Shown in pieces: positions 42,466 to 46,185 of a stretch of 64,000 bases of DNA (within the stretch, counting starts at the first letter, position 1; every line of letters begins with the position of its first letter). A program made the translations under genes and the position numbers. The notes beneath the pieces are model-generated. The model made no database searches and was not told where the DNA came from. It saw only the letters and a list, made by a program, of their open reading frames with translations. This DNA comes from Brachyspira hampsonii (lineage in GTDB: Bacteria; Spirochaetota; Brachyspiria; Brachyspirales; Brachyspiraceae): assembly GCF_002214805.1 (NCBI RefSeq), contig NZ_CP019914.1, forward strand, positions 1,116,001 to 1,180,000. Reading direction: 5' to 3'.

Positions 42466-42510
42466 TTGACAATTATCGATATGTATGATACAATCTAAAC
42501 ATATCGATAA
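42466..42510 (+). promoter_or_regulatory. ars operon promoter and ArsR operator
   Basis: TTGACA (42466-42471), a 17-base spacer and TACAAT (42489-42494). A perfect 12-bp inverted repeat, TTATCGATATGT (42473-42484) and ACATATCGATAA (42499-42510), brackets the -10 box. A further half-site TAATCGATAT follows at 42510-42519. ArsR/SmtB repressors bind such dyads and release on metalloid binding. Confidence 0.75.
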
Positions 42511-42546
42511 TAATCGATATATAATTATTAAAGGATAATTTACAAA

Positions 42547-42867
42547 ATGAAAGATTATAAAGAAGAAGCAATTATATTCAAAGCATTCTGCGATGAAAAC
42601 AGACTTAAAATATTGGAAATGATTAAAGAAGGAGAAATATGTGCATGTGAAATTTTAGAAAAATTAAATATAGTACAGTCCACATTATCTCATCACATGA
42701 AAATACTTTGCGATTCAAAAATTGTAATAGGAAGAAAAGAAGGTAAATGGACTTATTATAGTTTTAATGAAGAAGGAATAAAAAAAGCAGAAAAATTGAT
42801 AGGATATTACACAAATATATCATCATATAAAAAAGATGAAATAAAAAAAGAAAAATGTAAATGCTAA
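42547..42867 (+). CDS. arsR: ArsR-family metalloid-responsive repressor
   Basis: 106 residues. Winged-helix repressor with the recognition helix in VQSTLSHHMKILCDSKIV (about 45-62). The metal-binding CxC sits just before it, in ICACEILE (Cys34, Cys36), equivalent to the ELCVCDL of plasmid ArsR, and argues for As(III)/Sb(III) sensing. A second cysteine pair ends the protein (KCKC). It is the first gene of the operon with AAAGGA as ribosome site, and its own operator lies directly upstream. Confidence 0.9.
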   Translation: MKDYKEEAIIFKAFCDENRLKILEMIKEGEICACEILEKLNIVQSTLSHHMKILCDSKIVIGRKEGKWTYYSFNEEGIKKAEKLIGYYTNISSYKKDEIKKEKCKC

Positions 42868-42891: not shown

Positions 42892-43935
42892 ATGAATAAT
42901 AAAAAAGAAAATATAAGTTTTTTTCAGAAATATTTAAGTTTATGGGTATTTATATGTATGATTATAGGAATATTAATATCAAAATTTTTACAAGTAATAC
43001 CAAACACATTAAATAAATTTGAATATGCAAATGTTTCTATACCAATAGCAGTATTGATATGGCTAATGATATACCCTATGATGATGAGTGTAGATTTTCA
43101 AAGCATAAAGAACATTACAAAAAATCCTCAGGGACTTTTTCTCACTTGGGTTGTAAATTGGCTTATAAAACCTTTTACTATGTTTTTTATATCATCTTTA
43201 TTTTTTTATACTATATTAAATAATATAATACCAAAAGATTTAGCAAAAGAATATTTAGTTGGTGCCGTACTTTTAGGTGCTGCTCCTTGTACTGCAATGG
43301 TATTTGTTTGGAGTGCTTTAACAAATGGAAATCCTTCATATACCGTAGTTCAGGTTGCAACTAATGATTTAATAATACTCATAGCATTCGTTCCTATAGT
43401 AAAATTTTTATTAGGCATATCAAATGTTGCTGTACCTTGGGATACATTATTTTTATCTGTAGTATTATTTGTACTTATACCATTAACTGCTGGAATTATC
43501 ACAAGAGTTTATGTATGCGGTAAAAAAGGAATAGAATATTTTAATAATATTTTTATACATAAATTTGATAATATTACAATAATAGGATTACTATTAACAT
43601 TAATATTATTATTCAGCTTTCAAGGAAATGTCATACTATCAAATCCTATACATATAATTTTGATAGCAATACCTTTAATATTACAGACTTTTTTAATATT
43701 TTTCATAGCTTATATTGCAGCTTATTTATTGAAACTTCCCTATAATGTAGCTGCACCTGCCGGCATGATAGGGGCTTCAAACTTCTTTGAGCTTGCCGTT
43801 GCTGTGGCTGTATCATTATTCGGAGTTAATTCTGGAGCTGCACTTGCGACTATTGTAGGAGTATTAGTAGAAGTACCTGTAATGCTTACTCTTGTAAAAA
43901 TAGTAAATGCAACAAAAAGTAAATTCACAAATTAA
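42892..43935 (+). CDS. acr3: arsenite efflux permease, ACR3 family
   Basis: 347 residues with about ten hydrophobic helices. It exports As(III) across the inner membrane using the proton gradient. Signature elements are the conserved substrate cysteine in GAAPCTAMVFVWS (about 128-140), the early PIAVLIWLMIYPMMMSVDF and the late APAGMIGASNFFELAVAVAVSLFG with the essential Glu. It starts 24 bases after arsR. No arsC or arsA is present, so the operon handles trivalent arsenic rather than arsenate. Confidence 0.92.
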   Translation: MNNKKENISFFQKYLSLWVFICMIIGILISKFLQVIPNTLNKFEYANVSIPIAVLIWLMIYPMMMSVDFQSIKNITKNPQGLFLTWVVNWLIKPFTMFFISSLFFYTILNNIIPKDLAKEYLVGAVLLGAAPCTAMVFVWSALTNGNPSYTVVQVATNDLIILIAFVPIVKFLLGISNVAVPWDTLFLSVVLFVLIPLTAGIITRVYVCGKKGIEYFNNIFIHKFDNITIIGLLLTLILLFSFQGNVILSNPIHIILIAIPLILQTFLIFFIAYIAAYLLKLPYNVAAPAGMIGASNFFELAVAVAVSLFGVNSGAALATIVGVLVEVPVMLTLVKIVNATKSKFTN

Positions 43936-44082: not shown

Positions 44083-45096
44083 ATGGAAATCATAAAAACA
44101 ATATTTATATTTATACAGGATCAAATTATATCAATGAAATGGCTAAATACATTGATAGGCAATATACTAAATAATTTTAGTTTATCAGAAACATTGAAAG
44201 GGGCATTACAATTCTTTTTTTATGATGTTATAAAAATATTTGTTCTTCTTTCTGTATTAATATTTTGTATATCATATATTCAGTCTTTTTTTCCTCCGGA
44301 GAGAACAAAAAAAATATTAAGCAAATTTAATGGAATATATGCAAATATATTAGCAGCATTACTTGGAACTGTTACTCCATTTTGCTCATGCTCATCAATA
44401 CCTATTTTTATAGGATTTACTTCTGCAGGAATACCTATTTCTATGTCATTTTCTTTTTTAATATCATCGCCTCTTGTAGATTTAGCATCTATAATACTTT
44501 TATCAAGCATATTCGGTATGAAGATTGCTATAGCTTATGTTATTGTAGGACTTGTACTTGCTGTTGCTGGCGGAACTTTAATAGGAAAATTCAAAATGGA
44601 AAAATATTTAGAGGATTTTGTTAAAAATATAAAAACAAATAATACAGAATTAGAAATACAAACTATGACAAAAAAAGAAAGATTAATATATTCAAAAGAA
44701 CAAGTTGTAGAAACTATAAAAAAAGTTTATTTATATATTTTTATAGGAGTAGCAATAGGAGCTTTTATTCATAATGTAATACCAGAAAGCTGGATAAATA
44801 ATATATTAGGAAAAAATAATTGGTATTCCGTACCCTTAGCAACTTTAGTAGGTATTCCAATGTATGCCGATATATTCGGAACTTTACCTATAGCAGAAAG
44901 TTTATTTTATAAAGGTGCAGGAATCGGTACTGTTTTATCATTTATGATGGCTGTTACCGCTTTATCTTTACCTTCAATTATCATGATAAAAAAAGTTGTA
45001 AAGATGCCGCTGCTTATATTTTTTGTGTCAGTTGTAACTATTGGTATAATAATTATTGGATATTTATTTAATAATTTTTATTTTATATTTATATAA
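44083..45096 (+). CDS. arsP: ArsP/DUF318-type permease
   Basis: 337 residues with about eight to ten helices. The first half carries TVTPFCSCSSIPIFIGFTSAGIPI (about 97-120) and the second VGIPMYADIFGTLPIAESLFYKGAG, the two diagnostic repeats of the DUF318 permease family. Members next to arsR, called ArsP, export trivalent organoarsenicals such as methylarsenite, with the paired cysteines proposed as ligands. Placement behind arsR and acr3 supports that role. DUF318 permeases are often followed by small thioredoxin-like genes, as here. Confidence 0.82.
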   Translation: MEIIKTIFIFIQDQIISMKWLNTLIGNILNNFSLSETLKGALQFFFYDVIKIFVLLSVLIFCISYIQSFFPPERTKKILSKFNGIYANILAALLGTVTPFCSCSSIPIFIGFTSAGIPISMSFSFLISSPLVDLASIILLSSIFGMKIAIAYVIVGLVLAVAGGTLIGKFKMEKYLEDFVKNIKTNNTELEIQTMTKKERLIYSKEQVVETIKKVYLYIFIGVAIGAFIHNVIPESWINNILGKNNWYSVPLATLVGIPMYADIFGTLPIAESLFYKGAGIGTVLSFMMAVTALSLPSIIMIKKVVKMPLLIFFVSVVTIGIIIIGYLFNNFYFIFI

Positions 45097-45113: not shown

Positions 45114-45419
45114 ATGTTCTTTAAGAAAAAATCAGAATGCTGCTGCGGAGGTTCATGTGAAACTTCATCTGATGAAAATGCTAGAATAAAAATATTAGGC
45201 ACAGGATGCAGTAACTGTAAAAAATTAGAAGAAAATACTTTAAAGGCTTTAAAAGATATGGGACTTGATTTAACAGTGGGGCATGTTACTGATATAGATA
45301 AAATTGCCGCTTATGGGGTTATATCCACACCTAGCCTTGTATTAGATGATAAAGTATTGTCTTATGGAAAAGTGCTTACTAAAGATGAAGTCATTGCTTT
45401 ATTAAAAGATAAATTGTAA
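45114..45419 (+). CDS. small thioredoxin-like protein with Cys-rich N-terminus
   Basis: 101 residues. Residues 7-15 (SECCCGGSC) form a cysteine cluster not found in ordinary thioredoxins. A glutaredoxin/thioredoxin-like fold follows: IKILGTGCSNCKKLEENT with CxxC at Cys32/Cys35, the cis-proline loop STPSLVLDDKVLSYGKV, and a final helix. This matches the redox-active disulfide protein 2 group. AAGGAG is the ribosome site and the gap from arsP is 17 bases. It serves as the all-cysteine reference for the two TGA-containing paralogues that follow. It probably supplies thiols for arsenical handling or the permease. Confidence 0.88.
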   Translation: MFFKKKSECCCGGSCETSSDENARIKILGTGCSNCKKLEENTLKALKDMGLDLTVGHVTDIDKIAAYGVISTPSLVLDDKVLSYGKVLTKDEVIALLKDKL

Positions 45420-45502
45420 TAAATGTATGATTTTTTGATTTTTCAATTTGCAATTATTTTATATATACCTATAATATGTATAAATAAGTTTGGAGGCATA
45501 TT

Positions 45503-45820
45503 ATGGCTATAGAAAAAATTCAATTCGGCTGAGGCTGTTTGCCAGACCCTCTAGAGGAGGAGGGTGTAGAAAGAGAGATAGAAAAAATACTGCTTTTAGG
45601 CAATGATGATAAAAATTCTCTCGATATGCTTGATAATTTAAGAAAAGCTATATTGGAGTTAAATTTAGATTTATCCATAAAATATACAGACAGTAAAGGA
45701 ATTATGTCATATTACGGAGTTATGACTTTGCCTGCACTTATAGTAAATGATGAGCTTATATCTTATGGAGAAGTCTTAGATAAAGAAAAAATCATCAATA
45801 TTTTAAAAGAAAAATTATAA
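45503..45820 (+). CDS. thioredoxin-like protein with in-frame TGA (candidate selenoprotein)
   Basis: The frame opens at ATG 45503 (GGAGG at 45492-45496) and is in register with the long ORF ending at 45820, with TGA at 45530-45532 as codon 10. Reading TGA as selenocysteine gives 105 residues beginning MAIEKIQFGUGCLPDP. Without recoding only a 9-residue peptide would be made. The domain aligns with its neighbours (SIKYTDSKGIMSYYGVMTLPALIVNDELISYGEVL), but the normal CxxC is lost: the two cysteines are replaced by Asp36 and Ser39. U10-G-C12 would be the only redox pair. A hairpin lies at 45546-45565. Confidence 0.75.
45546..45565 (+). promoter_or_regulatory. SECIS-like hairpin after the first TGA
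   Basis: ACCCTC (45546-45551) pairs with GAGGGT (45560-45565), and U45552 can wobble-pair with G45559, leaving the loop AGAGGA. The loop begins 20 bases after the TGA and has G at its second position. The GC-rich stem is conspicuous in this AT-rich genome. Confidence 0.55.
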
Positions 45821-45843
45821 TAAAATAATTAAAAGGAGTAAGT

Positions 45844-46185
45844 ATGTCATTAAAAGATATTCTATTTGGAAGAGGAGGATGCGGCTGAGGACCTTCTATT
45901 AATCCCTTCGTTGAAGAGGAAACAAAAAAAGAATCGCCTGTAGAAGCTAGAATAAAAATATTGGGTACAGGCTGTTCTAAGTGTCAAAAATTAGAAGAAA
46001 ATGTAATAGCTGCTGTAGAAGAAGCTAAACTTGATTTGGCAATTAAATATGTAGAAGATATGGCTGAAATCGCTTCGTATGGAGTAATGTCAACTCCTGC
46101 TCTATTATTAGATGATAAAGTTCTTTCTTATGGTAAAGTATTAAGCAAAGAAGATATCATCAAAATACTAAAAGAAAATTTATAA
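45844..46185 (+). CDS. thioredoxin-like protein with CGU motif (candidate selenoprotein)
   Basis: ATG 45844 (AAAGGAG upstream) is in the same frame as the ORF ending at 46185, with TGA at 45886-45888 as codon 15. With selenocysteine there the product has 113 residues and begins MSLKDILFGRGGCGUGPS. The frame stays open from the TGA to the domain, although no start codon with a ribosome site lies between them. The domain is complete: IKILGTGCSKCQKLEENV with CxxC at Cys44/Cys47 and the cis-Pro loop STPALLLDDKVLSYGKVL. It thus has C13-G-U15 plus CxxC. It is the last gene of the ars operon, with a terminator after it. Confidence 0.75.
45903..45920 (+). promoter_or_regulatory. SECIS-like hairpin after the second TGA
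   Basis: TCCCTTC (45903-45909) pairs with GAAGAGGA (45913-45920) with one bulged A (45917). The loop is GUU (45910-45912), G first, starting 21 bases after the TGA. Confidence 0.55.

Follow-up and report, generated by a model that had tools for sequence, protein, structure and literature searches.

Genes at the locus

The window analysed was a stretch of 64,000 nucleotides of the Brachyspira hampsonii genome (NZ_CP019914.1), in which an ars gene cluster is followed by three thioredoxin-like paralogues, all on the forward strand. The cluster begins with an ArsR/SmtB regulator (42547–42867; profile match), followed by an ACR3 arsenite efflux transporter (42892–43935; above the TIGR00832 cut-off) and an ArsP-family (PF03773) permease with a CSC motif (44083–45096; profile match). 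The promoter region upstream of arsR (about 42466–42530) carries ATCGATA-type repeats that are conserved across the genus and are likely, as a putative assignment, to be the ArsR operator. Close behind arsP lies TrxA (45114–45419), an all-cysteine paralogue with the motifs CCCGGSC and CSNC, and downstream of it lies the pair TrxB (45503–45820) and TrxC (45844–46185). Both genes of the pair are cut short or overlooked by standard annotation.

TrxB starts at an ATG at 45503 and, after nine sense codons, reaches an in-frame TGA at codon 10 (45530–45532; MAIEKIQFG-U-GC). TrxC starts at an ATG at 45844 and reaches a TGA at codon 15 (45886–45888) after 14 sense codons (MSLKDILFGRGGCG-U-G). With TGA read as selenocysteine (Sec, U), the frames encode 105 and 113 amino acids respectively. 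The first-pass annotation had described two such TGA codons, each followed by an open thioredoxin-like frame, with UxC and CxU centres, and the sequence agrees on both points (FGUGC in TrxB, CGU in TrxC).

Its further claim of a complete domain past each TGA held for TrxC, in which the CXXC motif is intact (CSKC), and failed for TrxB. Against PF13192/TIGR00412, the post-TGA domain of TrxC gave E-values of 7e-25/1e-28 and TrxA gave 2e-24/4e-26, and both are clear Thioredoxin_3/MTH895 proteins with CXXC. The TrxB domain gave 2e-10/8e-11, covers model positions 15–76 only and, lacking the thioredoxin-fold CXXC, falls short of a complete redox domain. Likewise, relative to the MTH895/ArsE family (TIGR00412, cut-off 62 bits), TrxA (91 bits) and TrxC (99 bits) scored above and TrxB (42 bits) below the cut-off, and the N-terminal Sec tail of TrxB has no counterpart in that model. 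The AlphaFold model of TrxB nevertheless adopts the thioredoxin fold, although the tail is modelled at low confidence; the matches to this model include the MTH895 structure 1ilo. Membership of SaoT (NF040730), also a thioredoxin-like selenoprotein and listed with metal(loid)-linked selenoproteins, was rejected on scores of 14.2–14.4 bits against a cut-off of 65.

Conservation of the in-frame TGA codons

The locus was compared across the 24 Brachyspira genomes in which it occurs, with public-record names including B. hampsonii, B. innocens, B. pilosicoli, B. alvinipulli and uncultured members. The TGA occupied the identical codon position in 23/23 TrxB homologues, together with the FGUGC motif, and in 22/22 TrxC homologues, so that codons 10 and 15 were retained throughout the related Brachyspira in which the first-pass annotation had proposed to look for them. 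Neither a sense codon nor another stop (TAA or TAG) was found at either position in any species compared. Residues on both sides of the TGA were conserved in all species, and dN/dS downstream of it was 0.156 for TrxB and 0.13 for TrxC, indicating that purifying selection continues past the TGA. Lesions near the 3′ end were seen in two copies, the TrxB of genome G008 and the TrxC of G002.

The Sec machinery was found in the B. hampsonii genome, where selA and selB come after the tRNA-Sec gene (selC, anticodon TCA) and selD lies at another place; all four genes that the first-pass annotation had named as a check are therefore present. Across the genus, selA was present in all 26 genomes searched. 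Two members (G001 and G003) had selA and selC, and no homologue of TrxA, TrxB or TrxC was found in them.

A candidate SECIS is expected to be a hairpin shortly 3′ of the UGA with a G in its apical loop, and the sequence contains these features. In TrxB, comparative and folding evidence placed an apical stem-loop (CCCTC-loop-GAGGG) at 45547–45564 on the forward strand, beginning 17 nt after the T of the TGA. Its stem of five pairs could form in 23/23 species, including pairs changed from C-G to U-A, and its 3′ arm contains a rare GAG codon fixed in 23/23 species, whereas neighbouring genes use GAA in 84% of cases. In TrxC, the stem-loop at 45903–45920 (forward strand; comparative and folding evidence) has the core CTTC-GTT-GAAG, with the loop 21 nt after the TGA. 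In all 22 species the 5′ arm read CTTC or TTTC, the loop began with G and the 3′ arm contained GAA; the loop lay 18–24 nt from the TGA and had four nucleotides in the divergent genome G019; the hairpin codons were TTC in 21/21 and GAG in 20/21. Support for the TrxC hairpin is comparative: the minimum-free-energy test was weak (median p 0.18), the window copy was no better folded than shuffles, and the z-score by itself is uninformative. A search of Rfam gave no match.

The Sec machinery, the conservation of the TGA, the SECIS-like hairpins and the post-TGA selection agree in indicating that TrxB and TrxC are very probably genuine selenoproteins in which UGA is decoded as Sec, as the first-pass annotation had suggested. 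That the genes are pseudogenes with two separate nonsense mutations could be argued from the standard ORFs, each of which is broken by the TGA; the sharing of this codon by every species, never exchanged for TAA or TAG, together with the low dN/dS past it, makes chance mutation scarcely credible, and conservation rules out sequencing error in the same way. It is also very unlikely that the TGA is the true stop of a leader peptide and that the protein bodies are made by internal initiation at TTG codons (45539 or 45961). Although the table-11 ORFs do begin at those codons, such starts would lose the conserved tail and, from 45961, also part of the first strand; moreover, conservation in every species extends to the amino acids on either side of the TGA, and the distance to the hairpin suits a SECIS.

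Cysteine and selenocysteine in TrxA and in related genes

The family has been described before. Santesmasses et al. 2017 (PMC5330540) reported, in the passages on it, a cluster, present in all Brachyspira genomes, in which two genes have Sec and one has Cys. The family was described with the PF13192 fold and a short Sec-carrying extension at the N terminus; CXXC is missing from one of the Sec genes, and a candidate SECIS lies past the TGA. The cluster of TrxA, TrxB and TrxC corresponds to these redox-active disulfide 2 selenoproteins in its PF13192 domain, its N-terminal Sec extension and its one Cys and two Sec genes. The core selenoprotein finding is thus not new and has been known since 2017. 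The family also appears in PMC13188914 and PMC9312934 as Thioredoxin-like selenoprotein Sec.1/Sec.2 (PF13192), and in these later reviews the motif labels (CxU/UxC) are possibly interchanged with respect to the 2017 passages. Those passages mention neither the ars operon, nor a separate promoter with an inverted repeat, nor Sec forms of the Cys paralogue.

Where those passages place a Cys homologue in all genomes, the orthologue of TrxA was here found to be a Sec gene (SCGU) in four other species (G002, G011, G014 and G020; loci L065, L068, L069 and L067), so that G002 and G020 carry three consecutive Sec genes. The Sec-type TrxA genes have a hairpin, CCTTC-AGTT-GAAGG, 20 nt past the TGA and shifted in codon phase, whereas none of the 14 Cys-type TrxA genes had this motif. 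This natural comparison is the strongest control for the hairpins. Both the Sec forms of TrxA and the missing hairpin in the Cys versions are new here. In the domain tree, the Sec-type genes were scattered over three positions within the Cys-type genes (support was modest), which suggests that Cys and Sec have probably been exchanged more than once in TrxA. In the divergent genus member G019 (L071) just one copy is present; it follows arsP and is of the CGU type.

Outside the genus, the search covered partial samples of 393 Spirochaetota and 398 Bacillota genomes, plus 36 contig loci, and no internal-TGA (Sec) form was found in the sampled Spirochaetota and Bacillota. Apparent TGA matches proved to be terminal stops or upstream non-coding sequence (checked in G311), and those in Bacillota occurred alongside TAA and TAG. 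Cys-tailed relatives were present in Clostridia, and other Spirochaetota had relatives with Cys-rich tails beside arsR-arsP.

Promoter of the TrxB–TrxC pair

The pair has its own predicted promoter (TTGCAA-16-TATAAT; 45448–45482, forward strand), with an inverted repeat, TATAC-N9-GTATA, lying over the −10 element (pattern match 45464–45481). This promoter and repeat preceded TrxB in 23/23 species, and in the two genomes with the gene order A-C-B (G002 and G020) they preceded both TrxC and TrxB. The repeat differs from the repeats ahead of arsR. The exact pattern occurred at 38 sites in 26 genomes, compared with one for a reversed control.

Beyond the pair, the repeat was located about 20 nt upstream of a rhodanese gene in the three species checked, and in other species it precedes a MarR-type regulator that is accompanied by a YczE-like membrane gene. 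In the B. hampsonii genome, one-mismatch versions lie upstream of the rhodanese gene and across the −10 element of a CoA-disulfide reductase/rhodanese fusion. One-mismatch sites are no commoner in this genome than in the control (12 vs 10), and the case for a regulon therefore rests on the position of the sites, the genes they precede and their recurrence in other species. A repeat-like site before selC (L182, about 1501) was left out as evidence because it was conserved in only 3/20 species, the close relatives G000, G004 and G005, and absent in the other 17. The pair's own promoter and the recurring repeat are new here, and the shared pattern over these promoters possibly marks a candidate thiol-stress regulon.

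Role of the pair

The first-pass annotation had placed the pair in an arsenic operon, with Sec centres serving arsenical or permease redox chemistry. The placement itself is correct, the pair lying downstream of arsR, acr3 and arsP here and adjoining arsR-arsP in many species. Operon membership and role fared less well, as the pair has its own promoter and is separable from the ars genes. In B. pilosicoli-type genomes it lies approximately 2.5–3 kb from arsP, with two unrelated genes, which by eye encode a PTS-like permease and a conserved protein of hypothetical status, between arsP or TrxA and TrxB. It is intact where arsR and arsP are remnants (G017; L061 6700–7130) and where arsP is interrupted (G010; L064 2861–3902), and many species with the pair have no ACR3 gene at the locus. 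This persistence of the pair where arsR and arsP have decayed or lie apart is new here.

An arsenic function, in which the Sec tails would bind As(III) or organoarsenicals and hand them to ArsP or ACR3, or reduce arsenicals, would be favoured by the adjacency to arsR-acr3-arsP in most species, the relatives with Cys-rich tails beside arsR-arsP in other Spirochaetota and the NCBIfam family name MTH895/ArsE. The separability described above and a conserved promoter and repeat unlike those of arsR, the repeat also preceding rhodanese and CoA-disulfide reductase genes, make it rather unlikely as the main role. No literature was found tying arsanilic acid or arsenicals to the Brachyspira ars genes. 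The data are better explained by a thiol/sulfur-redox unit next to an ars operon than by an arsenic-operon role. Because the pair has its own promoter, with a repeat that rhodanese and CoA-disulfide reductase genes share, its primary role is tentatively placed in thiol/sulfane-sulfur stress rather than arsenic, with aid to the adjacent ArsP/ACR3 efflux genes as a possible secondary one.

Under this thiol/sulfane-sulfur reading, the pair would be expressed from its own promoter under the operator-like repeat common to the rhodanese and CoA-disulfide reductase genes. Independently of this reading, UGA at codon 10 of TrxB and codon 15 of TrxC is very probably decoded as Sec by SelB and tRNA-Sec, directed by the hairpin approximately 17–24 nt downstream. 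In both products, a short, flexible N-terminal tail bearing Sec-Gly-Cys or Cys-Gly-Sec is predicted to precede the MTH895/Thioredoxin_3 fold. As TrxB has lost the CXXC that TrxC keeps, the tail would be the one site left to it for Sec/Cys redox chemistry or ligand binding. The tail may form a selenenylsulfide or bind a soft electrophile, such as sulfane sulfur, a disulfide or a trivalent metalloid, and could act as a mobile selenol-thiol centre passing cargo to or from a CXXC partner, for which TrxC or TrxA would be the natural candidate in the case of TrxB.

Judging from sequence and genomic context, we give a probability of roughly 0.4 to the following reading: rhodanese, CoA-disulfide reductase and the Sec pair form one thiol/sulfane-sulfur regulon, undescribed in Brachyspira, with TATAC-N9-GTATA as its operator and possibly under MarR control, and in TrxB the redox centre has moved from CXXC to the N-terminal Sec-Gly-Cys tail. 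These thioredoxin-like genes offer a clean example of Cys/Sec exchange among paralogues, in which the SECIS comes and goes with the UGA. The promoter link would give a testable function to a selenoprotein family of intestinal spirochaetes that has so far been without one.
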